Under the pieces are notes generated by a model. The model saw nothing but the letters and a program-made list of their open reading frames with translations, made no database searches and was not told the DNA's origin. Made by a program: the position numbers and the translations under genes. From Lunularia cruciata (lineage: Eukaryota > Streptophyta > Marchantiopsida > Lunulariales > Lunulariaceae), in assembly GCA_948567375.1 (NCBI GenBank), contig OX419762.1, positions 39,785,034 to 39,849,033 on the forward strand: a stretch of 64,000 nucleotides of DNA, in the 5' to 3' direction. Below, piece by piece: positions 21,195-55,601 of the stretch; position 1 is the stretch's first letter; each line of letters opens with the position of its first letter.

Positions 21195-21299
21195 ATGCAT
21201 TATAAAAGCACAACTCACCCGTAAGTCATACATGAATACACCCACCAAGGCCTTAAAATATACATAGAAAAGTATATGCATGCCAACCTAACACTATCT

Positions 21300-22970: not shown

Positions 22971-22973
22971 CTA

Positions 22974-25719: not shown

Positions 25720-27136
25720 TCCTCACTTTATTTCCCACTCTATTGATTCTCCTCTAGGCTTTGGAGAACATATTGCACTCCTAGTCATTGCGGAAGATGC
25801 ATCTACTTGTATTACTCTACACATAAAGTTCAAGATGTCTCTATCACCAACATAAGAAGTGGAAGCCTTAGCACCGGAATCTAATCTCCTTTGAGCTAAG
25901 GCTATGCTAGCCAATCCATACTTCAATTGCTCAATCCAAGTAGCTATAGTTGCATTAGGAGCAAGGGTAGGTATTGTGCCCCTACCATGTGTGGATTCAC
26001 CTCTATCACCTCATCCTCTATGACTTAGAGCTCCTCTACCATCTCCATAGCAATCCTACCACTATGTAACTTTGAATTTAGGTCAAATCATCGACTAGTA
26101 TGACCAATCTATAGCAATGATCATATTGTTTTTGTGTTGGTTGTGATACACTAAAGGTATCATGTCCATTACCATGAGTGCATTATCTCTTGTGGTGAGG
26201 TCTACTATAAGTCCAACAAGCAACACCACCACTCATTGGCTACGTCTAACACAAAAATGAAGATAAGGGTCTAGCTACACTCCACTTGCTCCATAAGATC
26301 TAGGTTGTCTACTTTTCCCTTGAAAGTCAACACAATGTGGTGTACTTTTTTGCACTCTAGAAGAAGTAACAATTGTGGATGGGATCTCCTTACCAAATCC
26401 AAATATCACCACTCTCCCCTCCACCATATTGAGCTCAATGTGCTCAGCCAAACTAAAGACCACCGCCAAAGTAGGTAAGGTAGCCTATAACAACATAACA
26501 TCATATACTCTATATCACAATTCCCTATCTAGGATCCCTAAACTAGACTGCTTTGGCCTCAATAACTCCTTGAGTGAAACTGATCAGTCATCATGAGAGT
26601 GTATGCTTGCATAGGCTCTCTCTAGCCTTCCTTGAAAGCTCCTCATCTTGTTAGTATGCACTCCTTGATAGTTCTACCTCAAGCATTGGAAGAACTCCAC
26701 CATGGGGTTAAACTTCAATAATGCACCACCTCTTGTAGCAATAAACCCACTTGTAGTAGTACCAACTCCCATTAGTGCACCTCTACTAGATTCACCAATG
26801 CTATTAGAGCTAGAACTCATGGGTATTGCCAATCTAGCCCTAGCAATTGAACCTAAAGTGATGGAGATGTAGTTTGAAGACCAATATTGTCTCTGTAGCT
26901 TGATCTCCTCCAAGTGAGCTCTACTAAACTCATGATATTCATCCATTGGTAGACTCTCCAATTGTTGAAACAACCATTTCCGTACTATGAAAATTTTGAA
27001 TAAAGTTGAGTTCTGCATCTATTGCAGATCATACCAACTATTAAATTCTTAGATGAAGTCATCCAACTCAATAGTACCCATTATACTAGAGTAGCATTTG
27101 GGACCTTTGAAGACCCCATAAATCTCATCCATGTCC
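25720..27136 (-). pseudogene. gag of family C copy 2
   Basis: Open stretches at 27018-26674, 26469-26275 and 25926-25723 match gag of the + strand copy: MDEYHEFSRAHLEEI, LAEHIELNMVEGRV and RRLDSGAKASTSYVGDRD. The uninterrupted region around 26650 shows what the gag sequence looked like before the family A insertion in copy 1. At the site of the TAG seen at 51054 in copy 1, this copy has a CAA sense codon. Confidence 0.75.
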
Positions 27137-27688
27137 AAAAGCAACAATGTGAACACACAAGGTGCACTCTCAACTAATCAACTCCAAATCAAAGTCAATC
27201 TCTTCTTTCATTAGGACCTTGATATATAGGTTGATACCAAGTGCCACTCTATGTAAACCCATTGCATACTATAGTGGTTTCTCCTCTAAAATCCCCAAAG
27301 AACTCTATCATGATAAGGTAACTCAAACTACAACCATAACCACCACAAGTGCCACCACCAACTAAACATCACTCTCTAATTTAGCTCTAATTGTGACAAT
27401 TACATTAGGAAAAAAGATGATATGTAATCTACCATGAAAAGATCCACTCTCATGGTCTACAAATCATCACTTCTTGCCTTACTAGAGAGGAACATAGGTA
27501 GTTTGATTAGTCATCACTGTAGCCTCACTATCAAGAGTACACTAAAGCACCAATGCTCTAAAGTCAAGGAACCTCACATAAACAAGGTGCACAAACAAGA
27601 AGAAAAAAATGGAGTGGATCCAATAATAATAATTCTAAGCAAAACCTTTCATCTCATAAATCAACATTGGACTAATTCTACCACCATT

Positions 27689-29339
27689 TGTAATTTGATA
27701 TAATAAGAGTGTCTACTTACTCCTAAGCTACCAAGATCACCAAGGATGGGATCAAACTGCCTCTCCTAGCCAAAGCTACATGTGTATAGGTATTACTTGA
27801 CCAGTCATTAGGACAACAAGTAAAGGTGGACCAGTTAGCTAGGGCACCAATTTAAGAACCAACGATTTTGGGTTCAAACTCTATTGCGTACAATTTAAAA
27901 GTGTGGGCAGATTTTGCCAAATGATGACCAAAAATATATCTAAATTGGCTAGCCTCATGCCAACAAGTTGGCTTGCTAGGCCTTTATAGCCCACAACCCT
28001 ATGCCTTTAATTTCTCTTGCCCATAGAAAAGGGCTTCTAAATGTTGAAATTCAGCAAAATGAGGCTTTTTGTCTTGCCAATTTGAACCCTTTCTAACTCT
28101 TGCCAAGCTTCACCAACTCGAGCATTAAGTAGGGAAATTTGAGCAACCTCCAAATTTAGACAACCTTTGCCAACTTGACCTCCAAATTTGGACAACCTCT
28201 ACCAATTGGATACACTTCCTCTAAAGTTGCCTGATTGTAAAATCCTATGTTAACTCTCAACTTGAGCTAAATTGAGAGGATGTGGATCTCCAAATCACTA
28301 ATTCACCTCCTTGGGTTCAAATTGAATACCTACTACCTCAAATTGACTCAATTCTCAAAATTTGGCCAATGCTTTTACAAACCATCTATCCCACTACCAA
28401 ATTTGCACCAACTTGAATAGAGCTTCCACACATGATCACTCTTTGAGAAAACTAGTACCACAATCAAATGTACCAATGATCAGCCAAGCTTGGGGATACC
28501 ACCAATCCCTTTAGTTCCTGCACTCAATTTCTCTACAATGATCACTTCTCTGATCTAATCAGTTCATTCTTCCACTCACATCACAATCAATCAAATTTTT
28601 ACTTGATCCTTTACTCAACAAGTTGCAAGCAATTGTGCATTGATTATAGTGAAGTCACACTCACTTTAGCTAAGAGACTCTAGGTGATGTTTGTCAGCTA
28701 TTGTCCACCATAATCATGAACTTGAAGGTTCAACATCATAGAAATGAGCCCTCTAGAGTTGCAGTCTGAAAGTATACCCCTTTGCTTGACCTAGGTATTT
28801 AGCCTTAGCAACACCATTGATGGTACATTTGATGGTGCAAATGGTGCAAGTGATGGTGGCTCCCACCATGTGATCAATAAACCTAATATGAAATCTGGTT
28901 GCCAACAAGTAGTCCATGAGCAACTACCAAAATAATAATGATTGCCCAAACTACTACTCCAATGTCCAAGCAAACTAGCTTTGGCACTATAAATATTGTG
29001 ACACCAATCTAGGTAAGAGACTCCATCTAATGTTTATATATCTCTATCCACCATAATAGGAAGCTCAAAGGCTCAGCATCATAGAAGTGAGATTTCTAGA
29101 GTTACACTTTGATCTTATATCTCTCTATACTCAACCTAGAACTCCAACCTTAATGACACCAATTATTGCCTATTTGATGGTCCACCTAATGGTAGTTCTA
29201 ATAGTGTGATCAATAATCCTAACACAAAATCTAGTTGCAATTAAGTAGTCTCTAAACAACTATAGGTAGAATCATGATTGCAAAGACTAACACTCCATCG
29301 CGCAAGCAAACTAGCTTTGGCGCTACAAATGTCATGACA
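27689..29339 (-). repeat. 5' LTR of family C copy 2
   Basis: On the minus strand it begins TGTCATGACATTTGTAG and ends CAAATTACA, 1651 bp. The first ~650 bp are two tandem subrepeats (29339-29010, 29009-28684). It is followed by AATGGTGGTAGAATTAG, the decayed form of the primer-site region at 41623. It is collinear with 39942-41620. Confidence 0.75.
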
Positions 29340-39941: not shown

Positions 39942-41620
39942 ATTTGCAACACCTAAGCTAGTTTGCTAGGATGCTTGAGTGATTATCTTGGCAATGACCA
40001 TTTTATTATTGGTTATTCATGGACTACTTATTAATGGCTATCTATTCAATTAGGGTTTTTTTTTTTTGCACTGCTGGAGCCATTAGTTACTTTTTTATTA
40101 TTGTTAGATATGTTGTTAAGGTTGGACTCTTTTGGTCTTCCCAAGGTATAATTCAAACTGGAGTTTCATAAAGCTCACCTCTTTCATGTTGAGCCTCTAA
40201 GCCCTTGGTTATGGTGGAAAGAGTTGGTGGGTGTAACATAGATGTCACGCCATTTGTAGTTCCGCATCTAGATGCTCGGACACTGGAGTTCCAGTGATGG
40301 TAGTTAGAGTTATTCTAGCTGTTTCTCAGGGACTACTTTCCGACGGTTAGATTTCGTGTTTGGGGTACTGACTTCACGGTGGGGCCCACCGTCACTTTGC
40401 ACCATTTGCACCGTCGAGTGTGCCGTCAGCGGGACCGTTAGGGTTTCAGGGCTAGCTCGAGTCCAGGGGGTATAGTTTCAAAGTGAGCTCCAGAGAGCTC
40501 ACTTCTCTGATGTTGAGCCTTCGAGTTCCTGGCTATGGTGGACAGAGGCCGGCGAGCGTCACCTGGATTCTCTATGCTTGAGTGGGTGTGGCTTGACTGT
40601 AATCAGTGCCTAGTTGTTGGCAGTTTATAGAGTGACAGATCAAGTACTGATCTGAATTGAGTTGAGTTGAAAGTGTTAAGCAATCTGATTACATCAGAGA
40701 AGTGAAGTCAGGGGGAAATCGGGTGCAGGAACGTTGAGTGTTGGTGGTATCTCCAAGCTCGGTGGATCGTGGTAGCTCGATTCAGGTTCTATGTTTCCCT
40801 AGTGTGCAGAAGCTCGTGTAGTTGATGCAAATTTGGCAGTTAGGCGGACGGTGTGCGGAAGCGCTGGCCAAATTTCGAGCAAAGAAGGAGCAATTTTCGA
40901 GCAGTGTTGTGATTTTGAGCTCAGGAGGTGAAGGCAGGACCAATTTGCTGCGAGTTGGGCTCAGAAAGTGAAATTGAAGGTGGAGTTGGAAAGCTCTTCT
41001 CATGAAATTGTGATTTGGAAAAACCCGTTTTGTCAATTTGGCTCGAGTGGAAAGTTAGCGGGGGATTTGGCGGACATCCATCTTTAGGGTTTACGTCAGA
41101 TTTTACGTCAGATTTACGTCAGATTTTGGGCCAGAATTGGAGGAGTTTCGCTGTTTGGCCAGATTTGGAGAAGTTTCGCTAGTTTGGAGGAGTTTCACAG
41201 ATTTGGAGAAGTTTCACCAATTTTGGAGGAGGTTCGAAGTGGCAACAAGAAAGGCCTCATTTGGCTGAATTTTGGCGTTTAGAGGCATAGGGCTGTGGGC
41301 TATGAGAGGCTACGAAGGCCTAGAAGGGCCAGCAAGCCAGCTTGCTGGCGTGAGGCTAGCTAGTTTAGTGTAGATCTTGGTCATTAGTTGGCAAAATCTG
41401 CCTTTCTTGCTAGATTGTGCGCAACAGGGTTTGACCCCTAGATCTCTTGTTCCTAGACTGGTGCCCTAGCCAACTGGTCCACCCTCACTTGTTGTCATAG
41501 TGACTGTGCCACTGTTATCTATACACATGTAGCTTTGGCTAGGAGAGGCAGTTTGATCCCATTCTTGGTGATCCTGGTAGCTTAGGACTTAGATACGAAC
41601 TACTCTTATGTCAAATGCCA
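39942..41620 (+). repeat. 5' LTR of family C copy 1
   Basis: It runs from ATTTGCAACACC (the first nine or so LTR bases replaced by the family D border) to TCAAATGCCA. It contains two ~310-bp tandem subrepeats, from 39942 and 40252, that share ATGTTGAGCCT, GCTATGGTGGA and GGGACTACTT-like blocks. The same double structure is in copy 2 (28684-29339). Confidence 0.75.
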
Positions 41621-41622
41621 AA

Positions 41623-41640
41623 TGGTGGCAGAGTCAGTCC
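41623..41640 (+). other. Probable primer binding site of family C
   Basis: TGGTGGCAGAGTCAGTCC starts two bases after the LTR end, where the PBS belongs, and is partly kept in copy 2. The matching tRNA is not identified. It shares only TGG and AGAG with the initiator-Met site. Confidence 0.5.
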
Positions 41641-42225
41641 CGTGTTGTGTTATGAGATGGAGGGTTTTCGTTTAGATTTCTTGTGATTGGATCCCCTCCA
41701 TTCTCTGCTTCCTGTTTGTGCACCACGTTTGTGTGAGGTGCCTTGACTTTTGAGCGTTGGTGCTCTGGTGTGCTCTCGGTGGTGAGGCTGGAGTGATGAC
41801 CAGTCAGACTACCTTTGTTTCTCTCCGGTGAGGCAGGAAGTGATGACCTGCAGACCGTGAGAGTGCGTGTTATGATGGCAGGTTACAGGTTGCCCTTCCC
41901 CTAGTGTAGTTATCTCGGTTAGAGTTACATTAGTGGGTGGTGTCTAGTTGGTGTTGGCACTTGGTGGGGCACTTGCAGTTGCGACTTGCGGTTGCAGTTG
42001 GTGGTTCGGGTTTGCTGTTGCAGTTACGTGGTCACGACGGAGTTCTTTGGAGATTCCAGAGGAGTTAGCCCTGCAGTACGCATTGGGTTTACTCGGAGTG
42101 GTGCTCGGTATCAGCCTGTATCTCAGGTCCCAGTGAGGAAGGAGATTGACTCTGAGTTGGAGTTTGACACAGGAGCTGATTCAGTTGAGAGTGCACTTGG
42201 TGTGTCCGCACCATTGTTGTGGGAC

Positions 42226-42704
42226 ATGGACGAGATTTATGGGGCCTCCAAAGGGCCTAGGCGTTACTCTGGTACAATGGGTACTATTGAGTTGGATGAT
42301 TTCATCCAGGAGTTCGATAGTTGGTGTGATCTGCAGCAGATGCGGAACCCGACTTTGTTCACACCCTTCATGGCATGGAAGGGGTTGTTTCAGCACTTGG
42401 AGGGTCCACCGATGGACGACTACCATGAGTTGAGGAGAGCTCATTTGGAGGAGATTGAGTTATGGAGACAGTATTGGTCTCCACACTATGTCTCCATCAC
42501 TTCAGGTTCGGTGGCCAAGAGTAGGTCGGCTGTACCTACGAGTTCTAGCTCGAGTAGTGTTGGTGGAGCTAGTGGAGGTGCACTAGTTGGAGATAGTGCT
42601 ACTACGAGTGGAGGTACCGCTGCAGGAGGTGGTGTGGTACCAGGGTTTAACCCCATGGTGGAGTTCTTCCTATGTTTGAGGCAGAACTACCAGGGAGCGC
42701 GGAC
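42226..42704 (+). CDS. gag of family C copy 1, N-terminal part
   Basis: I start at ATG 42226 (MDEIYGASKGPRRYSG), because the decayed copy keeps an ATG there, although the frame is open further up. The capsid-like part has the retrotransposon gag pattern ELDDFIQEFDSWCD, FMAWKGLFQHLEG and HLEEIELWRQYW, followed by a Ser/Gly-rich stretch. The frame reaches the family A insertion at 42705 after QNYQGAR and continues in phase at 50508. Gag would form the particle that holds RNA, RT and, in this element, possibly DNMT (inference). Confidence 0.75.
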
Positions 42705-43383
42705 TGTAACACCCATTTGTGCATGTGTGTGGTATTGTGATATTTAGCTTAGTATTACAAGTACTTAAGAGATATTATTTATATAGAGATAAAGGATGGT
42801 TCTATATTAGTCATGGTTAGCTAAAGTTAGTCATAGCTAAGATAGATGGGACCTTACTTTAGAGGAAGTAGAAAAGATGAGCACCACTATTTTGGATTTT
42901 AGTGTGTTGACTTGGTATTATTCCTAGGTGTTTGGCTTTGGGGAAAGAGTTGAGAACTCTTGGGCCCGCAAGCCTTTTTGTTTTGGATTCTTCTTTAGTC
43001 CAAGGATAGCCCATGTGAAGGAATCCTTGCTTTAGTGGTTGGGTCAAGATAAGGGGAATATGCCCATGTGAATGGATATTCCTTTCTACTTTTTGACTTT
43101 ACTTGACTTTTAGTCTAGTAACTTGAGTTACTACGGTAATTAGTAACTTTGGTACGTAACTATTTCACAAGTATATAAACAAGGTGTGAGGAGGTACTCA
43201 TCATCCTTTCATTTGCAATTATCTCTCTCTCATTGAGTTCTCTAGTGAGCAATGTCTTGAGTCTTGGAGTGTTAGCCTTGGAGGAGTATGATGGAGTTGG
43301 GGTTCCTTGCCTTCTTAGTCCATGGTGCGCTACCATAATAGCCATCAGAGGTTCATCCTGAGTGAGAGACAGGCCGGCTCACA
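42705..43383 (+). repeat. 5' LTR of family A copy 2
   Basis: TGTAACACCC to GGCTCACA. It contains a TATATAAA box at 43172-43179 about 210 bp before its end, and GACTTTACTTGACTTTTAG short tandem units upstream of it. Confidence 0.95.
43172..43179 (+). promoter_or_regulatory. TATA box in family A 5' LTR
   Basis: TATATAAA followed by CAAGG, the only strong TATA in the LTR, identical at 50294-50301 in the 3' LTR. It should set the RNA start some 30 bp downstream. Confidence 0.65.
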
Positions 43384-43387
43384 TTTT

Positions 43388-43404
43388 TGGTTCCGTTGCC
43401 GGGA
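43388..43404 (+). other. Primer binding site, tRNA-Asp-like
   Basis: TGGTTCCGTTGCCGGGA, four bases after the LTR end. Only the GTT/GCG part differs from the plant tRNA-Asp complement. Confidence 0.75.
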
Positions 43405-44219
43405 CCTCTCTAGAAGGCAAGATAATGTTCCGCGTCCAATTCTACATTAGGCAGAAGGAGGCTATGAGAGCTCACTTGGAGAGAACATTAGGAGAGGAGA
43501 GGGCTGAACTTATGTTAGAGAACCAAGATCCATTTGTATACCCTGTAGTTCATTATGATGTCTTTGAGGTGATTTTGTACATCTTGTACACATGAGAGGA
43601 ATTGGAGAGATTGTGTGAGGTGGATTGCAGATTTTGGGGATTAAGGTGATTTTGGGCAAAATCTCAAGTTTGAGATCTGGACTTGAGATTTCTACACATG
43701 ATAGCTTGGGTTATCTTTCAATTAGCACACTTGAAATTATTGAGAGAGCTTCTATGCGCATTGGGCTAGAATTTTTGAAAGGTGATAGGGTAAAGTGCTC
43801 CCGCAACTGCATGCTCTCTGGAAAATTGTACAGAGTCTGCCATTTCTTCAATTTTCAGTGAATCGTCCTGAAAATTTCCAAGAAAATTCAGTGCATTGTA
43901 TCCTACCTGCTGCCACAAAAATTACAGAGAGATCGTTTTTGTGCAGGGCGTTATGAGTTTTTGAAGTGAGGGGGGTGGTTTTCAGACCAAATCTGAAATA
44001 TGGGTGCTGAATAGAAAGGTGTCTAGGCCAAATGGCTCGATGAAAAGATCTGAAATTTTGCAGGGAGGGACGCCCTGGAGTTGTGATCAAGTGTGGAAAA
44101 TTTAAGAGGAGTGTGACATATTGGTTGGGAGATTTGAGTGACATTGTGAGGAAGGGTCAATTCTGCAGAGTGGAGATCTCATGCATGAGAAGTTTGAGAT
44201 CAACAAAAAGCATGTTTGA

Positions 44220-44717
44220 GTGTTTAGATTCATCTTGGGGAACATGGAGGGTCATCAAGAGTGGAAATTGAGATTATGCAAGGTTCCCCAAGGGTTTGAG
44301 GTGATTGTAGGGGTGGATTTGAGGAAAAGAGAGTTTACAATAGAATTTGAAGAGAGTGTTGAGAGGATCCAAAAACCTACACCACTTGGAGGAAAGAGTG
44401 AGTCTAAGTGCTTTCTATGTGGAGAGAAGGGACATAAGGCAAGTTCATGTCCATTGACCTTTGAGAGCAAGAGATTGAGGGAAAGGAGAGGCTTACTTGA
44501 CTTGGGTTTGCATGTTGGACCTTCTTCACCAAGATTGGGAGGGAGAAGATCTAAGACCAAGGAGTTGTGTGAGGTTTGTGGAGTTGAAGGACTTCCAAAA
44601 GGACATGAGTGTAGTGGAGTAAAAGCACTTTTGGAAACTTTGGTGAAGGATCTTGGAGAGAGTCTTAGTACAGCTACAGAAATACTACCACCTTCATCAG
44701 CTAGTTCTCAAGATTAG
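44220..44717 (+). CDS. Family A leader ORF: zinc-knuckle protein between LTR and gag
   Basis: A frame of 165 codons preceded by a stop at 44217-44219 and lacking an obvious ATG at its start. Residues 64-77 form a CX2CX4HX4C knuckle (CFLCGEKGHKASSC). A second Cys/His cluster (CEVCGVEG...GHEC) follows near residue 120, and the tail is Ser/Pro-rich. Copy 1 carries the same frame, broken. A related upstream stretch (44083-44271, with IVRKGQFCRVEISC) is in another frame, so an indel near 44240 probably splits a longer protein. Extra proteins upstream of gag are known in some plant gypsy lineages. Function is unknown, and RNA binding is a guess. Confidence 0.55.
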   Translation: MFRFILGNMEGHQEWKLRLCKVPQGFEVIVGVDLRKREFTIEFEESVERIQKPTPLGGKSESKCFLCGEKGHKASSCPLTFESKRLRERRGLLDLGLHVGPSSPRLGGRRSKTKELCEVCGVEGLPKGHECSGVKALLETLVKDLGESLSTATEILPPSSASSQD

Positions 44718-44951
44718 TGATGGAGATAATCTTTCAACTTATGGATAAACTATCCATGAGAGTTAGATTAATATGCACTCTAGGATTTGATGTTGCTATA
44801 GAAATCTTGGAGCAACCTGAACCTTTTGTGTTCCCTAGAGTGGATTATTCTCAGATGGTGTTAGTCATGTATATACTCTATTAGTAATAGAGTGAGAGAA
44901 AAAAAAAAAAAAATTTTTTTTGAGAGAAAAGAAAGATAGTGAGGGGTTAAG

Positions 44952-46568
44952 ATGGGGAAACTTCCGGTTTTCTTTGGCAAGGATGGAGAAGATGTGGAGG
45001 CCTTTGTGAGAGACTTCAAGAGAGCTTGCATAGGAAACAATGAGAGGAGGAAGAATGAGTGGGCCTCATTATTACCAGATTTCTTTGAGGATGCAGCACT
45101 TACATGGTATGAGTCAGAATACCAAAAGAGAGAGAGGAGAGAGGGGGAAGAGGAGTCTTGGGAGACTTTGACTTCAGCACTCATTGAGAACTTTCTTCCT
45201 GATGAGAGTTATGAGAGATTGATGAGTGAGGTTACATTTCTCAAGCAAGGAGATGGAGAGAAAGTGAGGGTCTATGTGGAAAGAGTGGAAAAGTTGGAGT
45301 CCAGATTTCGCATAGTGTTGAGGAAGGGTGGGGATGATGTGGAGACTACAATGATTGGCATAGGGGCCATGCTCACCAAGAATTTTGTGGGAGGATTGAG
45401 AACACAAATTAGAACCAAGGTGAGATATGAGAAACCTTCTTCCAAGGTTAAAGCTATCAAGATCGCAATTTGTATGGAGGAGAGTTTGGAAGGGGATGAG
45501 AGTGATTTGGTGGTGAAGGAGGTTGTGCATCCTCCTCAAGGCTACAAGTATGGTGGAACTTCTGATACTTTGGTGACAAGGGTTGCACCACAAGTAGTAG
45601 TTGCTCCAGTTCTTGCACCTCCACCAAAAGATCCACTCCAAACCATCACAGAACAACTTGCGGATCTCAAGATCAATGTGGTGCAACTATGGGAGAAGAG
45701 AGAGGTGGATCAGAATGTAGGGAGAGGGCCTAGGAGTTATGGAAACTATCCATATAGAGGAGGCCAACCAGCCAACAATTTCAATGATAGAAATTGTTTT
45801 GGTTGTGGAGGAAGAGGCCATATCCAAAGGAATTGCCCAAATTCCACTTACCATGGAGGAAGGGGTTATGAGGGAGCCAATAGAGGGAAAGAGGGAGGTA
45901 GTGAAACCCAAGTGGCTCCTAATCCCAACAAAGGTAAGGAGATAGCATCCATAGATGTGGTTGAGAGCAAGTATGAGAAGGGAGAGTGCTCAAACTCCAA
46001 GGGTCCTAATTTGGAGCTTTTGGCACAAGAGAAGAAGAGAGCTCGTTTTGCAGAGGATGTTCACTCTTCTCAAGGATTTACTTCAAGCAAGGATACTCCT
46101 ATGTCTACTAGGAGCACTCGCACCTCAGCACCATCAACAACAAAGACTCCAAGGAAGAAGTTGGGGATGGAGGACTTCTTGATCTCAAAGCAACAATGGA
46201 ACTACAATGTGTTGGAGGATGTTGGTAGTCACAAGGCTAACATCACAGTGGGCCAATTAATTGCTTTGAACCCTACCTTGAGAAAGGAGCTTAGAGGTGG
46301 TTTGAGTTCTACAAGGAGCAAGAAGAAGAAGAAGGCAAAATTTCCAGTATCAATGGGGGTGGTGGATGCCAAGCCAGCACCATGGGAGGCTTGTGAATAT
46401 GCCTCCAAGATTGATGTGAGAGTGAATGGTCACAACATCAAGGATGCATTGGTTGATGGAGGATCAGCAGTGAATGCCATGTCAGAAAGGTTGATGAAGA
46501 AGTTGGGTATGATACCCTCAAGACCTTCAACATTTGTGGTGAGCATGGCAAACAAGCAACAAGTTTGA
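44952..46568 (+). CDS. gag and start of protease, family A copy 2
   Basis: Starts at ATG 44952 (MGKLPVFFGKDGEDVEAFV). The capsid part (residues about 1-190) has FEDAALTWYESEYQKRERRE and VRVYVERVEKLESRFR. The zinc knuckle CFGCGGRGHIQRNC begins at residue 282. A Lys/Arg-rich linker follows, and then the N-terminal half of the aspartic protease, with the active site as D502-G-G-S (VDGGSAVNAMS). The frame ends at TGA 46566-46568 inside the protease, and pol continues in the same phase. CGA-to-TGA decay at a CG site would explain it. Programmed readthrough is less likely, since the stop splits the protease fold. Confidence 0.9.
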   Translation: MGKLPVFFGKDGEDVEAFVRDFKRACIGNNERRKNEWASLLPDFFEDAALTWYESEYQKRERREGEEESWETLTSALIENFLPDESYERLMSEVTFLKQGDGEKVRVYVERVEKLESRFRIVLRKGGDDVETTMIGIGAMLTKNFVGGLRTQIRTKVRYEKPSSKVKAIKIAICMEESLEGDESDLVVKEVVHPPQGYKYGGTSDTLVTRVAPQVVVAPVLAPPPKDPLQTITEQLADLKINVVQLWEKREVDQNVGRGPRSYGNYPYRGGQPANNFNDRNCFGCGGRGHIQRNCPNSTYHGGRGYEGANRGKEGGSETQVAPNPNKGKEIASIDVVESKYEKGECSNSKGPNLELLAQEKKRARFAEDVHSSQGFTSSKDTPMSTRSTRTSAPSTTKTPRKKLGMEDFLISKQQWNYNVLEDVGSHKANITVGQLIALNPTLRKELRGGLSSTRSKKKKKAKFPVSMGVVDAKPAPWEACEYASKIDVRVNGHNIKDALVDGGSAVNAMSERLMKKLGMIPSRPSTFVVSMANKQQV

Positions 46569-46577
46569 CCAGTAGGA

Positions 46578-49500
46578 GTGATGGATAAGGTGGTAGTTTC
46601 AGTTATGGGAGTCCAAAATCTCATGACTTTCCAAGTCTTGAAGGATTCAAGCTATGACTTACTTCTTGGGAGGCCATGGTTGAGAGCAGCACGCACAACT
46701 GATCGATGGCACAAAGGGTACTTAAGGATTGGGCCATCAAACCATAGAGTCACTGTTCCTGTGACTAACACCACCAACACTTCACATTCAGATACCCCAT
46801 CTTCTGATTATTGGGAATCAGATTCTGAAGGAGGAGCTTCAGGTGTGGACACAAGCATGGAAGAGGAGACTTCCACGGAGGAGGATGAATCTGAATCTGA
46901 TTCAGATGTGTATCCTTTATGTGCTATGGATTTTGCACCTAAGCCAGAGGTTTTGAAGGACCCAGATAAATCACCATTGACACTTGAGGAGGTAGAGAGA
47001 AGGTTATCTACCCTCAAGTATGGCCCAAATGTTACCAAGGAGGAGAAGGTGAGATTTGAGGAGATTTTCCGCAAGTTCATCCATGTGTTTGCTTTTAGTT
47101 ACAAGGATTTGAAGGAAGTCACCTTGGAGGAGCACAAGATAGAGGTGGAGTCACATGCAAGACCAATCCGCCAAAAGCAACGTCGCATTAGCCCACCAAT
47201 ATCTTTGGTTGTGAAGGAGGAGATTGATAAGCTCAAGGAGGCTGGATTTATCTTTGAGGTGGAGAATTCAGAATGGGTGTCTCCAATTGTCATTGTGAAG
47301 AAAAAGAATGGCAAGCTTCGGGTATGTGTGGATTACAAGAAGCTCAATGCTGTTACCAAGAAGGACTACTACCCATTGCCATTCATTGATGAGATCTTGG
47401 AGGAGGTTGCAGGTCATGAGAGGTACAGTTTTGGAGATGGTTATAGTGGATATAACCAAATCAAGATTGCACCAGAGCATCAACAACTCACCACATTCAC
47501 CACACCTTGGGGAACTTACGCTTTCAAGGTCATGCCTTTTGGGCTTTGCAATGCTCCAGCCACATTCCAACGGTTCATGAACAAGGTATTTGAACCTTTC
47601 ATTGGGAAATTTGTGAGAGATTTCATTGATGACTTTTGTGTCTATGGGAGCAAGGAGGAGCACTTTGAGCACCTAATCAAAGTCTTGCAACGCTTGGATG
47701 AGGCAAATGCATCACTCAACCCAGAGAAGTGCATTTTTGGATGTGAAGAAGGTCTACTTTTGGGGCACATCATCTCCAAGGATGGAATAGCAGTTGATCC
47801 TGAGAAGGTGAGGAAAATCTCAGACCTTCCATTCCCGTCAAGCTTGACAAAGTTATGCCAATTCTTGGGAATGGTTGGGTACTACAGGAGGTTCATCTTC
47901 TCATTTTCCAACAAGGCTTATGCATTGACCATCTACATGAAGAAGGGTGTAGATTACATGGTGATTTTGGAAGACAAAGAGGCTCTCAAAGCTTTTGAGG
48001 AGCTCAAGCAATCCCTTGTTGTAGCTCCAATTCTTGCTAAACCTGATTGGAGTAAGCCTTTCATCCTCTACACTGATGCTTCTAGTGTAGCTATAGGATG
48101 CACTCTTAGTCAATTAGACCAAGATGGGCATGATCATCCAATAGCTTATGCTAGTAGGCAGATGGTTTCAGCAGAGAAGAACTACTCTGTCACAGAGAGA
48201 GAAGGGTTGGCAGTGATCTTTGGTCTCAAGAAGTTTAGACACTACTTGATTGGAGGGAAAGCCACAATTGTCACGGATCACAAGGCTTTGAAGTACATCT
48301 TCAACAAGCCTAATGTTGAAGGGAGACTAGCAAGGTGGATGATACTCTTGTCTGAGTATGACTACACAATTGAGGATAGGCCAGGAAAGAAACATGCAAA
48401 TGCTGATTTGTTATCTAGAGCCTATGATCATGATGGAGATGAGCCAGTAGATGATTCCTTCCCGGATGAGGAGCTCATGACAATCTCAGTCACTCAAGAG
48501 GTTCCAATGGAGTACAAGGAGATTGTGGATTTTGTGACAAGAGGTAACTATCCAAAAGGGATGCATGCTAGGGAGAGGAAGGCCCTTGCAGCAAGATCTA
48601 GACCTTACACAATGGTGGAGGATATTCTTTTTCACCAAGGAGCAGATGGTCTACTTCGAAGAGCAGTGGGTAAGGAAGAGTCTATCCTACTCATAAAGGA
48701 GTTTCATGAAGGTTTAGTATGTGGAGGACACTTTGCAGGAAAGGTGACTGCTTTCAAGATTCTATATGCAGGTTACCATTGGAGAGGGATTTTCAAGGAT
48801 TGTCTTGATTATTGCAAAACTTGTCATGTTTGTCAAGCTTTTGCTAGAAAGTCTACATCCACTCCACCACTTAGATCAATTCCATTGCTAGGACCCTTTG
48901 AGAAGTGGGGAATTGATTTTGTAGGACCTCTCAATAGAACCCCAAGGAACAATCGGTACATTGTGGTAGTTACTGATTACCTTACCAAGTGGGTTGAGGC
49001 TAGACCATTGAGGGACAAGAATGAAGATGAAGTGGGTAGATTTCTTTATGAACGCATTATCACTAGGTTTGGATGCCCTTTGGAGTTGGTTTCTGATAGA
49101 GGAGGAGAGTTTACAGGAAGCATTACTACAGCCATGCTACGACATTTCTCTATCACACATAGAGTAACTACATCCTATAAGCCAAATTCCAATGGCTTGG
49201 CAGAGAGAACCAATCAGACCTTGTGCATGATGTTGGCCAAAGATGCAGAAATGGAGGGGGCTAAACATCATTGGGACAAGAGGATTCATGCAGTTTTGTG
49301 GGAGTATAGGACAACCATGAAGACTTCCACTGGATATTCTCCATTCCAATTGGTGTATGGTATTGAGTCTACCTTACCTATTCACTTTGATCTTCCTACC
49401 TTCCAAAGCATTCATAGGAGATTGAAGAAAGCACAAGGAAGTGATGCAGAGAAGTCAAGGAAGGATCAACTCATGGAGTTGGAAGAGGCAAGAGCAGTTG

Positions 49501-49778
49501 CTATGGTTCGAGTGGAGCAAGCCCAAAGGAAACAAAAGGAGAGCTATGACAAGAGGCAAGGCAAGAAGAAGGTGGAGCCTTTCAAAGAAGGTGATTGGGT
49601 AATGTTGTTTGATTCCATTCGATTCAAGAGAGTGCAAAAGAAGTTTTTGCCTAAGTACTTTGGACCTTTCATAGTAGAGAAGGTGTGGGGAAATTACACT
49701 TATGATCTCAAGGAGTTGGGAGGAAGACACTTTGATAGGATTAACCATGATAAGTTGAAGATGTACCATAGAAGGTAG
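46578..49778 (+). CDS. pol: protease end, RT, RNase H, integrase, family A copy 2
   Basis: A 1066-residue open frame in phase with gag across the TGA at 46566. It carries the protease C-terminus (YDLLLGRPWL near residue 30), an acidic linker, RT with CVDYKKLNAVTKKDYYP and the box FIDDF (residues 349-353), and RNase H with YTDASSVAIG (D500) and TDHKALKY. Integrase has zinc ligands H710, H718, C746 and C749 and core acids D780 (GIDFVGP), D840 (SDRGGEF) and E876 (LAERTNQ), all present. The last 100 residues hold a GPY/F-like FGPFIVEKVWGNYTYDL module. No chromodomain. The enzymatic core looks functional. The expression block is the stop in the protease. Confidence 0.95.
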   Translation: MMDKVVVSVMGVQNLMTFQVLKDSSYDLLLGRPWLRAARTTDRWHKGYLRIGPSNHRVTVPVTNTTNTSHSDTPSSDYWESDSEGGASGVDTSMEEETSTEEDESESDSDVYPLCAMDFAPKPEVLKDPDKSPLTLEEVERRLSTLKYGPNVTKEEKVRFEEIFRKFIHVFAFSYKDLKEVTLEEHKIEVESHARPIRQKQRRISPPISLVVKEEIDKLKEAGFIFEVENSEWVSPIVIVKKKNGKLRVCVDYKKLNAVTKKDYYPLPFIDEILEEVAGHERYSFGDGYSGYNQIKIAPEHQQLTTFTTPWGTYAFKVMPFGLCNAPATFQRFMNKVFEPFIGKFVRDFIDDFCVYGSKEEHFEHLIKVLQRLDEANASLNPEKCIFGCEEGLLLGHIISKDGIAVDPEKVRKISDLPFPSSLTKLCQFLGMVGYYRRFIFSFSNKAYALTIYMKKGVDYMVILEDKEALKAFEELKQSLVVAPILAKPDWSKPFILYTDASSVAIGCTLSQLDQDGHDHPIAYASRQMVSAEKNYSVTEREGLAVIFGLKKFRHYLIGGKATIVTDHKALKYIFNKPNVEGRLARWMILLSEYDYTIEDRPGKKHANADLLSRAYDHDGDEPVDDSFPDEELMTISVTQEVPMEYKEIVDFVTRGNYPKGMHARERKALAARSRPYTMVEDILFHQGADGLLRRAVGKEESILLIKEFHEGLVCGGHFAGKVTAFKILYAGYHWRGIFKDCLDYCKTCHVCQAFARKSTSTPPLRSIPLLGPFEKWGIDFVGPLNRTPRNNRYIVVVTDYLTKWVEARPLRDKNEDEVGRFLYERIITRFGCPLELVSDRGGEFTGSITTAMLRHFSITHRVTTSYKPNSNGLAERTNQTLCMMLAKDAEMEGAKHHWDKRIHAVLWEYRTTMKTSTGYSPFQLVYGIESTLPIHFDLPTFQSIHRRLKKAQGSDAEKSRKDQLMELEEARAVAMVRVEQAQRKQKESYDKRQGKKKVEPFKEGDWVMLFDSIRFKRVQKKFLPKYFGPFIVEKVWGNYTYDLKELGGRHFDRINHDKLKMYHRR

Positions 49779-49811
49779 AGAGACCTTCACTTTGAGGACA
49801 AAGTGAAAACT

Positions 49812-49826
49812 TAGTCCGGGGGTAAA
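49812..49826 (+). other. Polypurine tract of family A copy 2
   Basis: TAGTCCGGGGGTAAA just before the 3' LTR. Its G-run primes plus-strand synthesis. The mirror image is seen at 59514-59528 in copy 3, with the G-run reduced. Confidence 0.7.
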
Positions 49827-50505
49827 TGTAACACCCATTTGTGCATGTGTGTGGTATTGTGATATTTAGCTTAGTATTACAAGTACTTAAGAGATATTAT
49901 TTATATAAAGATAAAGGATGGTTCTATATTAGTCATGGTTAGCTAAAGTTAGTCATAGCTAAGATAGATGGGACCTTACTTTAGAGGAAGTAGAAAAGAT
50001 GAGCACCACTATTTTGGATTTTAGTGTGTTGACTTGGTATTATTCCTAGGTGTTTGGCTTTGGGGAAAGAGTTGAGAACTCTTGGGCCCGCAAGCCTTTT
50101 TGTTTTGGATTCTTCTTTAGTCCAAGGATAGCCCATGTGAAGGAATCCTTGCTTTAGTGGTTGGGTCAAGATAAGGGGAATATGCCCATGTGAATGGATA
50201 TTCCTTTCTACTTTTTGACTTTACTTGACTTTTAGTCTAGTAACTTGAGTTACTACGGTAATTAGTAACTTTGGTACGTAACTATTTCACAAGTATATAA
50301 ACAAGGTGTGAGGAGGTACTCATCATCCTTTCATTTGCAACTATCTCTCTCTCATTGAGTTCTCTAGTGAGCAATGTCTTGAGTCTTGGAGTGTTAGCCT
50401 TGGAGGAGTATGATGGAGTTGGGGTTCCTTGCCTTCTTAGTCCATGGTGCGCTACCATAATAGCCATCAGAGGTTCATCCTGAGTGAGAGACAGGCCGGC
50501 TCACA
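49827..50505 (+). repeat. 3' LTR of family A copy 2
   Basis: 679 bp, two substitutions from the 5' LTR. Followed by AGAC and the resumed gag frame of family C. Confidence 0.95.
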
Positions 50506-51143
50506 AGACTGACAAGCTGAGGAGCTTGCAGGAGTTCCAGCGGAAGGCTGGAGAGAGCCTACGCGAGGCATACACTCGCATGAGGCGGCTGATCAGTTTC
50601 ACTCAGGGAGTTACTGAGGCCCAAGCAGTCCAGTTTTGGTATGGGATATTGGACAAGGAGTTGCGCCGTAGAGTTCGTGATGCTACGTTGTTGCAGGCTA
50701 CTTCGCCCACTTTGGCAGTAGTCTTTGGTTTGGCTGAGCGTATTGAGCTCAACATGGTGGAGGAGAGAGTGGTGACATCTGGATTTGGTAGAGAGACCTC
50801 ATCCACGGTTGTGACTTCTTCTAGAGTGCAGCAGAGTGCACCACGCCCAGTTGATTTTCGAGGACAGGGTGGACAGCCCAGATCCTATGGAGCGAGTGGA
50901 GGGCCTAGTGGAGTTAGACCCTTACCCTCATTTTCGGGTCAGCAGCAGCCAGTGAGTGGTGGTGTTGCTTGTTGGACTTGTGGTGGACCTCACCATAGGA
51001 GAGAGTGTACTCAGGGCAGCGGACCTGATACCTCTAGTGCATCACAGCCAGCATAGAGGCAGTGTGAGCATTGCCACAGATTTGGTCACACTAGTGACCG
51101 GTGTTTTGACCTACACCCGGAGTTACGGAGTGGTAGGGCTGCT
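50506..51143 (+). pseudogene. gag of family C copy 1, C-terminal part with zinc knuckles
   Basis: It resumes at TDKLRSLQEFQRKAGESLR right after the family A LTR. It contains the helical LRRRVRD and LAERIELNMVEERV blocks, a variant knuckle CWTCGGPHHRREC, and, after an in-frame TAG at 51054-51056, a standard CX2CX4HX4C knuckle (CEHCHRFGHTSDRC). The decayed copy has a sense codon (CAA) at the TAG, so this stop looks like a CAG-to-TAG mutation and not a designed one. Gag and the DNMT protein share the same frame. Confidence 0.75.
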
Positions 51144-54011
51144 ATGGCAGGTAGTAGAGGAGCTCCAGTTCATGGAGGACGAGGTGGTAAAGGTGGTGGT
51201 AGAGGATCTACACCTAGTAGGGGTGCAGTACCTGCCCTTACTTCTGACACAGCTATGGCTACTCGGATTGAGCAGTTGGAGCAGAGATTGGCTAGTATGG
51301 CTATTGCTCAGAGGAGATCAGATTCGGGTGCTGAGGCTTCCACCTCATATGCTGGTGATAGAGATGCTTTGGACTTCATGTGCGGAGCAGCACAGGTGGA
51401 TGCATCTGCAGCAGTGACTAGGAGTGCAGTACGTGCTCCAGAGCCTAGAGGAGCATCAGTGGAGTTGGACCCACAGAGAGGAGAGGTTGGGAGACAGGTC
51501 AGACTTCCCCAGTCTTTCACGTTATCTGAGGCATTGCAGACGACATCCATGGTTCCTAGACGTCCTAGTGCAGGTGTGGTAGGTGGTGATGGAGTACCTG
51601 CTAGTCAGCCACCTGCTACTACACAGACTGAGTCTAGCATGATGTTGGGGGCGGCTCAGCTGATTATGCGGCATCCTTTATTTTCAGCCAGTGACATGTT
51701 TACATTGGGAGTTGACCCAGCCCCAGTGTTCCGGTTGGCTACCACGTTGTGTGAGAGTAGGGATGGTGCAGTTCCTACTACTAGAGCAGAGGTGGTTGGT
51801 AGTGGAGCTGACTTGGTTGAGGAGCATGGGATCCATTTAGCGACCTGTGGTTTATGGCAGGCAGCAGCGGCTAGACTGGAGGAGTTGCCAGCTAGACCGG
51901 CCTTTGAGAGAGCGCGGTTTACACCTGGTGTTGTCTTATTGGATAACCAGAGGGGGATCTTTTGTTTGGTAGGACCTTCAGGGAAGGTCTATACACCACA
52001 GAGAGTCTTGTTAGACTCTGGTGCGCAGCCCCTTATGTTGGGGAAGGCTGCAGTTGTTGGTCTGGAGTTACGGAAGACCGATGTGGAGAGGTGTCCATTT
52101 CAGATCCAGACATCTCTTGGTGGTGGTTCGACACAGTACATCACACGTGGGGAGCTTGTTGTCCAGGTTCAGCCTGGTCATCCGACTGATAGCTCAGTGG
52201 TGAGAGCTCAGGCTATTGCGACGATAGCTGAGTCATATGATGTGCTAGTTGGGGGAGCAGTGTTATACCCTATGGGTTTCAGTATTGACTATTGGGAGGA
52301 GACAGCCTCTTATAGACCTGGTTGGCAGTTTGGTGAGGGACGGGTATGTCGTCTACTAGTACGTTTTAGTAGTGGCAGTCTTGGCTCACTACAGTCCGGG
52401 ACCATGGCAGCATCAGTTTTGGCTTTCAGCGGTGCAGTCACTTGGCCTGGTGACTTGTTGGAGGGGAATGCCCATGCAGAGGATACTCCAGTACCAGAAG
52501 AGATCACTTGGCTATGGAGTACGAGTGGGATTGTTCCATCCACCTTGGATGTTCCATTGTGGAGTTCAGAGGAGGCATTGCAGCAGCATGCAAATCAGTT
52601 GGTGCAGCAGGCTTGGAGTGGAGCCTTCGTACCATCAGGGGATGAGTGTGAGGATGAGCCTCCAGAGGCGATTGCTTTGACACCTCTGGATACCACACTC
52701 ATTGCTTGGCAGTACCCAGTAGAGGGGATATGCCCATTGGAGTTGTTTGGTGGGATTAGCACCGGACTAGCTGCGATGTTACAGGCGGGTATCCGAGTAC
52801 AGAGGTACTTGTATGTAGAGAGAGATGAGACTACTAGGCGAGTCTCTCTACATCATGTGGCACACTTGGCCTATCGGTATCCAGAGTTATTACCGATGTC
52901 AGCAGTCAGAGGTTACCAGAAGGCCTTACCAGGAGACATTTCCTTATTGGGGGCGCATGACCTAGAGAGACATGGGCCTATTCACTTGGTGATTTTTGGA
53001 TGGCCATGTCAGGGACATACACGTGCGGGCCGCGGTTTGGGTCTTCAGGATCCTTGTTCTGGTGTGTTTTGGGAGATGTTACGGATACTACGACATCTCC
53101 AGGTTCATCAATCTGTTTCTCCAGCTTACCTTTTGGAGAACGTTCCATTGATGGGTGATTCTCGCACTAGAGTGGTGGCAAGTACACATCAGGTCCATTC
53201 ATGGATGGGACCTGCTGTATTGTTAGATGCAGCCAGAGTGGGATCACGGGCTCATCGTCTTCGTCTTTGGTGGACGAACCTTTTACCCAGAGAGGTTCTA
53301 CAGCGTAGTTATGATGGGATTCAGCGACTTGACCACATCCTTGTTGATGATATCTTGGATGTTGGGCGTCAGTCTCAGACAGTGGTAGTGGCTGATAGGT
53401 CACCTATGGCAGTGGTGAACCTAGTTGGACAGCCTAGAGCTGCATTTCCCACACTCATGAGTTTCCCAGGCTCTCATGCTTTTCGAGAGGGAGGACCTGG
53501 ACTTGTTTGGGACTCACAGTTACAGCAGTTGGTGGAGCCCAATGCTGATGAGAGAGAGCGGACGATGGGTTTTTGCACTGGTATTACCGCTGTTCCAGCA
53601 GTGTCAGAGGCATCCAGGCGTCAGGTGTTAGGTCAGGCTATGGACCTGAACTGTTTGACCTGGATTGTGAGCCTTGGTTTGGCAGAGCAGCGTAGGATGC
53701 GCTTGATAGGCATCACCACTCGGACACTTGTGAGCCCTGTGCCTATCGAGACGATTCAGGCACATGCTGGGGGCGATGGACCGAGTGGACATGGTATTCT
53801 TGGGACACATCCAGTAGCTACTAGGGAGAGTGGTCTACTTGGAGTCCATCCAGGTGAGCGTGGGCTACTTGGATTACACCCTTGGTCCACATGGGATGCA
53901 GCCAGAGGACGTATGGAGCTTGCAGCCAGAGTGGAGGGAGTTTTTCACACAGAGGTTGGGACCTCTAGTGGTTGGGAGCATGACACCATTGCTCCCAAGG
54001 GCCCAGTGTAG
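51144..54011 (+). CDS. Aspartic protease and C5 cytosine DNA methyltransferase (retrotransposon polyprotein segment)
   Basis: A 955-residue open frame in phase with gag. Residues 291-293 are D-S-G of a retropepsin (LLDSGAQPLMLG), with the later YDVLVGGAVLYP block near 365. From about 528 to 850 a C5-methyltransferase domain follows in canonical order: motif I PLELFGGISTG (531-541), motif IV GWPCQGH with catalytic Cys622, motif VI LLENVP (Glu665), an Arg-rich motif VIII GSRAHRLR (701-707), RERTMGF, and motif X-like RRQVLGQAMD (G830). WGP-like and AHR spacing recall DNMT3-type enzymes, although PCQ is Dcm/DNMT1-like. No PWWP, ADD or BAH module is seen. All catalytic residues I can check are present. 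It transfers methyl groups from AdoMet to cytosine (family knowledge). ATG 51144 may only be an internal Met. Confidence 0.9.
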   Translation: MAGSRGAPVHGGRGGKGGGRGSTPSRGAVPALTSDTAMATRIEQLEQRLASMAIAQRRSDSGAEASTSYAGDRDALDFMCGAAQVDASAAVTRSAVRAPEPRGASVELDPQRGEVGRQVRLPQSFTLSEALQTTSMVPRRPSAGVVGGDGVPASQPPATTQTESSMMLGAAQLIMRHPLFSASDMFTLGVDPAPVFRLATTLCESRDGAVPTTRAEVVGSGADLVEEHGIHLATCGLWQAAAARLEELPARPAFERARFTPGVVLLDNQRGIFCLVGPSGKVYTPQRVLLDSGAQPLMLGKAAVVGLELRKTDVERCPFQIQTSLGGGSTQYITRGELVVQVQPGHPTDSSVVRAQAIATIAESYDVLVGGAVLYPMGFSIDYWEETASYRPGWQFGEGRVCRLLVRFSSGSLGSLQSGTMAASVLAFSGAVTWPGDLLEGNAHAEDTPVPEEITWLWSTSGIVPSTLDVPLWSSEEALQQHANQLVQQAWSGAFVPSGDECEDEPPEAIALTPLDTTLIAWQYPVEGICPLELFGGISTGLAAMLQAGIRVQRYLYVERDETTRRVSLHHVAHLAYRYPELLPMSAVRGYQKALPGDISLLGAHDLERHGPIHLVIFGWPCQGHTRAGRGLGLQDPCSGVFWEMLRILRHLQVHQSVSPAYLLENVPLMGDSRTRVVASTHQVHSWMGPAVLLDAARVGSRAHRLRLWWTNLLPREVLQRSYDGIQRLDHILVDDILDVGRQSQTVVVADRSPMAVVNLVGQPRAAFPTLMSFPGSHAFREGGPGLVWDSQLQQLVEPNADERERTMGFCTGITAVPAVSEASRRQVLGQAMDLNCLTWIVSLGLAEQRRMRLIGITTRTLVSPVPIETIQAHAGGDGPSGHGILGTHPVATRESGLLGVHPGERGLLGLHPWSTWDAARGRMELAARVEGVFHTEVGTSSGWEHDTIAPKGPV

Positions 54012-54017
54012 CAGCCA
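54009..54017 (+). other. UAG-CAG-CCA: candidate programmed readthrough stop
   Basis: The DNMT frame ends with TAG followed by CAGCCA, matching UAG-CAR-YYA, the leaky context of tobamovirus replicases. The RT frame continues in the same phase. The decayed copy 2 has TAG-CAG-CTA at the same aligned place (22973-22965, minus strand), still within the consensus. Readthrough would yield little RT relative to Gag-DNMT. Confidence 0.65.
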
Positions 54018-55601
54018 GTCAGTACGTCTTCCACTCCTACTACAGTTACAGAGGATACTTGGGAGCCAGATCTTGGACCCAAGCTTACTGGAGAGGAAAG
54101 ACAGAGGGTTTGGAGGTTCTTGAGGAGTCACACGAGTTGTTTTGCCTTCAGTATGAAGGATTTGGGTGCTCTGAAGGGACCTGGTATACGGATTGAGCTG
54201 ACTAGCAACACACCAGTTTTCCGACGTCCTTATCGATATAGTGATATGGAGAGGACATTGATTCAGAGCCGGAGTAGTGACCTTTTTGAGGCTGGTTTGG
54301 TGGAGATTGCACATGGAGAGTATGCATCAGCGACAGTGATGCCAGCCAAGAAGGATATGCATGGCAACTATACAGATAGGCGGATGTGTGGAGATTACCG
54401 TCCTATCAACCGACAGACCAGGGCTGATCGGTATGCCATGCCTACACCGGAGGAAATTTTTGATGCGATTGGGCATGCAAAGGTCTTCAGTACTTTGGAT
54501 CTTCGAGCGGGATATCATCAGTTGCCGATCAGGGAGGAAGATAAGTCCAAGACAACATTTTGGGCTATTGATCCTCACGGCAAGGATGTGTTATATCAGT
54601 GGAGATTCTTACCATTTGGGTTGAAGAATGCTCCTGCTGAGTTCCAGAGGGTCATGGATAGGATCCTAGCTGGACTGGATTTTGCTCGGTGCTATATTGA
54701 TGACATTTTGGTGTATAGCACTACTGTGGAGGAGCATGAGAGACAGTTGTTGGAGGTGTTTGAGAGGTTGAGATCTCATGGACTCAAATTACATCCTGGG
54801 AAGTGTAGGTTCTTCCATGAGCAGGTTGAGTATTTGGGTCACACTATCTACCCCGGAGGACTTGGTGTTCAGCAGACCAAGGTGGAGGCTATTGCACGTA
54901 TTCCTCGGCCTACGGATGTGAGCAGAGTGCGAGCATTCCTTGGGTTGGCGAACTTCTATCGCCGCTATGTTAGAGGATTTAGTGCCATTGCCAAGGCCTT
55001 GACGAAGCTGACCAAGCTTACACAGGAGTGGTGTTGGGGAGATGAGCAGGAGAGAGCTTTTGTAGAGCTCAAGGAGAGGTTGACATCTGCTCCTATTTTG
55101 AGGAGACCGATTAGGGGACGACCATTTCAGGTTCACACTGATTGGAGTATGTTGGGGCTTGGAGCGGTGCTCACCCAACATGATGATGAGGAGAAGGAGT
55201 TTGTGGTGGCCTATGCTAGTCGCTCCAACAATTCAGCGGAGGCGAAGTATAGTTCATATGAGGGAGAGTGCTTGGCAGCAGTTTGGGCAGTAGCACATTT
55301 CCGATGTTACCTATTTGGTAACCCCTTCACTCTCATCACTGATCATCAGCCGCTGAAGTGGTTGATGGAGTCTGACAAGCTTTCAGGGAAGCTTGCACGA
55401 TGGGCTCTGATTTTACAGGAGTATGATTTCACGGTTGTTCACAGACCTGGAGTGGTGAACCGTGATGCAGATGGGTTGAGTAGAAACCCATGTCCCAGCC
55501 AGCAGGATCAGACCGGAGCACGTTGGCATGGTGAGACAGATGAGGAGATGGTGCCAGGTTGGCATGCATCAGCCTTTCTGTGTATATTTGCAGAGACATT
55601 G
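54012..55601 (+). CDS. Reverse transcriptase and RNase H of family C copy 1, 3'-truncated
   Basis: The frame continues in phase after the UAG. RT blocks: VMPAKKDMHG, MCGDYRPINRQT, FSTLDLRAGYHQ, LPFGLKNAPAEFQR and the catalytic box CYIDDILVYS (YIDD at 54693-54704). RNase H keeps its four acidic residues in HTDWSMLGLGAVL, YEGECLAA, ITDHQPLKW and NRDADGLSRNP. At about 55601 the frame crosses into antisense family F sequence, which adds a foreign tail up to a stop at 55664. No integrase follows. Retrovirus-type integrases normally lie after RNase H in Ty3/gypsy, so this is either lost or absent from the family (copy 2 also lacks it). Confidence 0.85.

Follow-up and report, generated by a model that had tools for sequence, protein, structure and literature searches.

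A Ty3/Gypsy retrotransposon family of the liverwort Lunularia cruciata with a predicted DNMT3-type cytosine-C5 methyltransferase at the end of its Gag-Pro polyprotein

Does a Gypsy retrotransposon in Lunularia cruciata encode a cytosine-C5 DNA methyltransferase (DNMT) of its own and, if so, at what level is the enzyme made and on which DNA would it act? The question is raised by an open reading frame (ORF) at positions 51144-54011 of a 64-kb stretch of contig OX419762.1, called here the window, meaning the whole stretch that was analysed. The ORF, of 955 aa, exists as a preliminary description had reported it; that description saw in it a methyltransferase between a retropepsin and a reverse transcriptase (RT). 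On the analysis below, the locus most likely represents a known, rare kind of element in a land plant, and belongs to an old family of the green lineage.

The methyltransferase is borne out by independent searches and by modelling. On the forward strand, the ORF contains a retropepsin (pro; 51915..52340, recognized in the sequence by LLDSGAQ with Asp291) and, flanked by it and by the RT, a C5 methyltransferase domain of the DNMT3 type at about residues 515-860 (52686..53720, +), placed by Pfam, a PDB search, a family profile, an AlphaFold2 model and motif positions. Pfam DNA_methylase matches residues 597-676 at 27.3 bits (cut-off 22), so that the search for a C5-methyltransferase fold suggested earlier did return one, of DNMT3 type. 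DNMT3A is found in the PDB with an E value of 5.1e-9 from a single sequence and of 7.5e-25 from a family profile. The AlphaFold2 model (pLDDT 90.9, pTM 0.90) has DNMT3 chains (DNMT3A/3B) as its top structural matches, and DNMT3A/3B are nearest by both sequence profile and fold. Motifs in the 955-aa ORF start at residues 290 (LDSGAQ), 532 (LELFGG), 619 (GWPCQG), 664 (LENV), 703 (AHRLRLWW), 803 (ERERTMGF) and 828 (VLGQAMDLN), and the residues claimed beforehand, Asp291, Cys622 (codon 53007-53009) and Glu665 (codon 53136-53138), are all at the positions given for them.

The blocks of the methyltransferase, which we take to be motifs I, IV (PC), VI (ENV), VIII, IX and X, stand in linear order, and not in the rearranged order of the DRM type. 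Animal DNMT3A/3B and plant DNMT3 have the catalytic fold and the linear motif order in common with this domain, whereas the element's DNMT is housed in a retrotransposon ORF and is without the partners of cellular DNMT3: Pfam found no PWWP, ADD or DUF3444, and DNA_methylase alone, in the 955-aa ORF and in the full-length ORF of another genome copy (L100), which argues for a retrotransposon domain of DNMT3 type and not a cellular DNMT3. BAH, RFTS, chromo or helicase domains accompany the methyltransferase in DNMT1/MET1, CMT and DNMT5; Pfam found none of them in the 955-aa ORF, which is thus not assigned to these classes. The genome also has an intron-split DNMT3-like gene (L129) and a DRM-like gene (L130), recognized by eye and then placed in a tree; by eye, L130 shows the rearranged motif order. 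According to Yaari et al. (2019, PMC6453930), DNMT3 is retained in plants other than angiosperms.

The ORF belongs to a longer, damaged element, copy A, whose parts all lie on the forward strand. Its 5' LTR of about 450 bp (40243..40691) is 98.0% and 96.9% identical to the LTRs of two genome copies, L104 and L099, and the 5' leader (40692..42225) has 95% identity with the L099 leader. By homology to a Marchantia protein, gag starts at 42226, breaks off at 42705 and resumes at 50505. Its N-terminal part (MDEIYGASKGPRRYSG..., 42226..42705) was placed by tblastn with residues 1-154 of that protein (P0002), and the block is also present in 19/20 genome copies; the C-terminal part (50505..51053), placed by homology, has a zinc knuckle (CWTCGGPHHRREC) seen by eye. 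The gap is filled by an unrelated nested LTR element (42705..50505, +), delimited by self-comparison and Pfam, with 99.7% identical LTRs at 42705-43383 and 49827-50505 and an ORF for RT, RNaseH and integrase (INT) at 46578-49778 (+, Pfam).

Position 51144 is only the first ATG downstream of an in-frame UAG within gag (51054..51056), and the true gag start is further upstream. This UAG is private to copy A and was rejected as a recoding site: the matching codon lies inside an open frame of at least 300 aa in 19 of the 20 genome copies (in L106 the frame over it opens just two codons earlier), and the remaining copy, L107, has no gag. Downstream of the DNMT, UAG CAG CCA (54009..54017) separates Gag-Pro-DNMT from RT and RNaseH (54012..55591; Pfam and self-comparison), which lie in the gag-pro-DNMT frame; INT and a PHD finger are lost, and another element is found from about 55605. 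The 3' LTR of copy A is not within view. Rfam and tRNA scans gave no finding. The earlier statement that the DNMT is in phase with gag stands as to the frame, but the gag of copy A is itself cut, by the UAG at 51054 and by the nested element. With these two lesions, the loss of INT-PHD and the 3' truncation, copy A is defunct, its pro-DNMT frame being still open over 955 aa.

Three copies of the DNMT element lie within the window. Copy B (18943..29003, -), identified by comparison and homology, is old and has many stops; it has LTR-like ends (29003-28600 and 19256-18943) and the order gag-pro-DNMT-UAG-RT, its main blocks show 75-79% nucleotide identity, and INT-PHD was not found in it. Self-comparison places another element inside it (21197-19314). 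Copy C (7089..7698, -) is a DNMT remnant with 74-75% nucleotide identity to A and B. A flanking repeat at 36279-38899, 61250-64000, 21197-19314 and 11686-9796 was judged not to be part of the DNMT element, as in copy B it sits the way an insertion would, between pre-LTR stretches that adjoin each other and overlap by 5 bases in the query; reading it as a 5 kb LTR is wrong, the LTR of the DNMT element being about 450 bp long.

Beyond the window, a search of the genome with DNA_methylase (565.8 Mb in 74 contigs) gave at least 123 matches in 566 Mb, cellular genes included, a lower bound because 123 of 2161 first-look candidates were scored. The 20 genome copies examined have the longest open frames among the 123 listed, and all were found via the DNMT, so the sample is silent on how many copies are without it. 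The order pro-DNMT // UAG // RT-RNaseH-INT-PHD is present in 20/20 with nearly constant spacing, and gag in 19/20, L107 being the exception; the gag-protease-DNMT-RT order, which the preliminary description had proposed to look for elsewhere in the genome, is thus found there. At the amino-acid level they are 93-99% identical to pro, DNMT and RT of the window. Several of these copies show frame breaks, and in the 18 whose DNMT match is unbroken, GWPCQ is kept in 17, LENV in 17 and a stop-free domain in 11.

Pfam detects RVT_1, RNaseH, Integrase_H2C2, rve and PHD in the RT ORF of L104, the PHD at 40.9 bits (cut-off 24). Among five copies examined for LTR pairs of about 450 bp, the pairs are 99.1% identical in L104, 98.0% in L099, about 97% in L101 and 88% in L103; L100 lacks such a pair where one would be expected and has just a 69% match 5-6 kb further upstream. 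The young pairs indicate that the family was recently active. From the RT-RNaseH-INT order (L104, by Pfam) and the LTR pairs (L099, L104), the copies are classified as a family of Ty3/Gypsy LTR retrotransposons with a Gag-Pro polyprotein that is predicted to end in a DNMT3-type cytosine-C5 methyltransferase. That a Gypsy element encodes its own C5 methyltransferase is then a family trait, seen in three window copies and 20/20 genome copies. A one-off chimeric join, for which the preliminary description had allowed, or an error of assembly is virtually excluded by these copies together with named liverwort and moss proteins of the same kind.

The stop codon between DNMT and RT bears on the level at which the enzyme is made. 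For plant RNA viruses, UAG-CARYYA is described as the motif of type I readthrough (PMC5382211). After the UAG, copies A and B have the hexamers CAG CCA and CAG CTA, respectively, and 20/20 genome copies have CAG CCA, CAG CTA or CAG TCA; the hexamer is CAA TCA in L066, a relative of 51% identity whose contig is filed under a cyanobacterial MAG. (The search that gave L066 also gave 32 weak loci in bacterial records.) All of these contexts match UAG-CARYYA and have an open frame beyond; the genome copies are too closely related to count as independent cases, the distinct ones being the family of copy A, copy B and L066, which vary just at positions that CARYYA permits. The match to the published definition of type I readthrough, as in tobamoviruses, is exact, the difference being that here the putative leaky UAG, known from sequence, parts Gag-Pro-DNMT from RT in a retrotransposon. 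The context suggests that the DNMT is probably made at the Gag level, together with Gag-Pro, and the RT through readthrough only, by leaky termination.

Protein searches give Calypogeia, Marchantia, Sphagnum and Riccia as the nearest named relatives. P0001 (Calypogeia) and P0002 (Marchantia) are 62% and 63% identical with 98-99% of the query part covered, and P0003, the best relative without a species name, is 71% identical over 82%. The DNMT-bearing Gypsy proteins of these four genera share the pro-DNMT order with the Lunularia family and sit in public sets as hypothetical or unnamed. Further out among the matches listed are Closterium and, weakly, Haematococcus; none of the species names given for the matches listed (40; 83; the best 120 of 287) is that of a vascular plant, most of these matches carrying no species name. 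One search of viral contigs was without a match, and another gave 65 weak loci (best E 5e-13 at 37%), assumed to be phage methyltransferases.

Both DNMT and RT are present in 65 of 114 relatives, 24 with the DNMT before the RT (type I order) and 41 with RT-RNaseH-DNMT (type II order); 32 of the 41 type II proteins have a PHD finger. Among type I proteins with a complete DNMT C-terminus, 29 end 11-165 aa past the DNMT, some perhaps at a contig end or through the gene model, and 16 continue uninterrupted from the DNMT into RT, some being intron-spanning gene models; readthrough is thus not universal. The domain-order label changes once on the DNMT tree (105 rows, 62 labelled) and once on the RT tree (58 rows). 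Path distances in the two trees correlate with r 0.85 (n=55; 0/2000 permutations as high), and with r 0.91 within type I (18) and 0.64 within type II (37). Judged by these trees, DNMT and RT are shown to have been inherited together across many related elements.

How often Gypsy elements acquired a DNMT3 is less clear-cut. In a tree of 46 chosen retrotransposon rows of both orders and cellular sequences, one branch (100/99) divides all 46 from the host's DNMT3 and DRM and human DNMT3A, a cellular set of three partial rows, one of them long-branched. Type II is not one clade in this tree, and forced type II monophyly is not rejected (p-AU 0.21). One old capture followed by one relocation is the simplest reading, short of proof. 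Repeated, separate capture of DNMT3 by at least two Gypsy lineages, behind the two domain orders and the element of the charophyte Klebsormidium, would fit the clean separation of the orders, a tree from which the rows of Klebsormidium and most cellular DNMT3s of the green lineage are absent, and the independence of charophyte and dinoflagellate captures stated by de Mendoza et al. (2018, PMC5890265); given the common branch of both orders and the concordant DNMT and RT trees, we consider it rather unlikely. We would give an even chance to a fuller form of the single-capture reading, in which a green-lineage Gypsy element took up DNMT3 once, long ago, and kept it as a particle protein, with one branch making it at the Gag level before a leaky UAG of tobamovirus type and another carrying it in Pol after RNaseH, many of these elements also having a PHD finger.

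Evidence that the DNMT has been under constraint comes from its motifs. Among copies, pN/pS in the DNMT frame is 0.39 (0.25-0.57) compared with 0.46 in the +1 frame, so that this measure shows no purifying selection on the DNMT; the comparison of copies A and B has the same flaw (0.46 vs 0.45 in the control frame). RT is separated from its control frames (0.29 vs 0.64 and 0.74), and INT is not (0.52 vs 0.42). Across 25 aligned rows, with identities as low as 31%, the Glu of motif VI does not vary and at least 90% of rows keep the catalytic Cys, which appears to be better evidence of constraint than pN/pS. In three distant relatives (P0036, P0038, P0034), EHV or ENA takes the place of ENV in motif VI. 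These variants, the fusion of the domain to Gag-Pro and the fact that, in the account of de Mendoza et al. (PMC5890265), activity is shown for no Gypsy DNMT would fit a domain that works on RNA or is a mere structural part of the particle, a reading that we hold to be improbable.

The preliminary description had also supposed that the enzyme might hide the element from host defence or tune that defence, and for this the data give no support. Pairwise C-to-T differences between copies amount to 0.056 per site at CG, 0.035 at CHG and 0.008 at CHH, a pattern read as CG and CHG methylation with resulting decay, as in methylated transposons; the copies thus do not appear to escape methylation. Copy A has a CpG observed/expected ratio of 0.41, and the old copy B one of 0.06. 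The decay of the copies could also be expected if the DNMT were a self-limiting regulator, which would methylate the LTR or copies already in the genome and hold their number at a tolerable level, rather than protect new cDNA, and slower transposition is among the possible benefits proposed by de Mendoza et al. (PMC5890265). However, host methylation yields CG and CHG decay too, so that the decay does not single out the enzyme of the element; the family has inserted recently; and a particle protein made at the Gag level would be better suited to act inside the particle, so this role seems doubtful.

Elements of this kind have precedents, and the one named in the preliminary description was correct: de Mendoza et al. 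(2018, PMC5890265) reported Gypsy-Dnmt3 in Klebsormidium. KnitGypsy-Dnmt3 of Klebsormidium nitens is likewise a streptophyte Gypsy element with a DNMT3-type domain, several copies and conserved key residues; compared by description, its domain lies inside the Pol polyprotein ORF, whereas the DNMT of Lunularia ends the Gag-Pro ORF ahead of the UAG. Among the protein matches listed, the Klebsormidium element does not appear by name. The same source describes DIRS and LINE elements with a DNMT in dinoflagellates (SymbioDIRS-Dnmt3, SymbioLINE-Dnmt), which are also retrotransposons with a DNMT of their own, of other classes and, according to that source, with no relation to the Gypsy elements. SymbioDIRS-Dnmt3 of Symbiodinium carried out de novo CG methylation in yeast; the Klebsormidium Gypsy-Dnmt3 domain showed no activity there, a result its authors called inconclusive. 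A 2025 paper (PMC12344493) reports DNMT3s within LTR and DIRS elements of streptophytes and dinoflagellates, and in one place assigns them to 'LTR Copia and DIRS' elements. A search of the open-access literature found no paper on such Gypsy elements in liverworts or mosses, and the literature seen, in searches not aimed at readthrough or domain orders, holds no description of a Gag-level DNMT before a leaky-type UAG, of the PHD finger or of the second order.

Taken together, the reading that we favour, with a probability of about 0.6, is a Gypsy family with Gag-Pro-DNMT3, a leaky UAG, packaging at the Gag level, self-methylated cDNA and PHD-directed insertion. Ribosomes would mostly terminate at the UAG and occasionally read through it, so that the methyltransferase would be made and packaged at the Gag level, in excess of RT, and the element's own protease would release it. 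More speculatively, the enzyme may methylate the element's new cDNA in the particle or with the pre-integration complex, at CG at least, as others have shown for another retrotransposon DNMT3, and the insert would then arrive already marked; the PHD finger at the end of the integrase may steer insertion toward a chosen chromatin state.

A genomic parasite thus seems to make a chemical mark of the kind with which hosts silence it. In the literature seen, transposons with the silencing enzyme of the host come from a charophyte and dinoflagellates; here they form a multi-copy, recently active family in a genome with its own DNMT3 and DRM. The leaky-stop context yields a concrete, testable prediction, namely DNMT at the level of Gag, and the two domain orders are a natural experiment on where a DNMT must sit to be useful. 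If the fuller single-capture reading is true, these elements would carry their own writer of DNA methylation and their own chromatin reader to every insertion. Marchantia, a laboratory plant with such elements, may offer a route to asking what a parasite gains from DNA methylation.

Copy A, the window's copy of the DNMT element (a Ty3/Gypsy LTR retrotransposon family with a DNMT3-type C5 methyltransferase between the protease and the RT), has ERERTMGF as its motif IX, and this exact string is absent from 18 of 18 genome copies. Among 31 relatives in the alignment, nearly all have Ala in the column of residue 807 (numbered in the 955-aa pro-DNMT ORF; codon at 53562-53564); the residue of copy A is a private change in motif IX.

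The DNMT element holds a nested, young Gypsy element (42705-50505, LTRs 99.7% identical), whose family is also represented to its right, at 58418-61252, by diverged pieces. Members of a further family of LTR-like elements, whose gag-pro-like ORFs run along the minus strand, are present at 12930-18542 and 55605-58366, the latter piece coming after the RNaseH of copy A. A repeat starting TGTGACAACC is found in the window at 36279-38899 (+), 61250-64000 (+), 21197-19314 (-) and 11686-9796 (-), and lies close to several DNMT-element LTRs, both here and in the flanks of the genome copies L099, L103 and L104. Its copies at 61250-64000 and 36279-38899 carry on the opposite strand an acidic, coiled-coil-looking ORF, three pieces of which gave no Pfam match.

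L066, a 51%-identical relative, is a gag-pro-DNMT // RT-RH-INT-PHD retrotransposon (1-9285) recorded under an uncultured Synechococcales MAG (AVDCRST_MAG81); the two ends of its contig overlap by 127 identical bases, and the contig looks like eukaryotic contamination of that MAG. A similar error may lie behind P0143, a protein whose name assigns it to a Candidatus Obscuribacterales MAG. Finally, the long-branched Gypsy proteins P0102, P0104, P0107-P0109, P0111 and P0112, which come without named hosts, bear the DNMT near the protein start and may represent separate DNMT captures.
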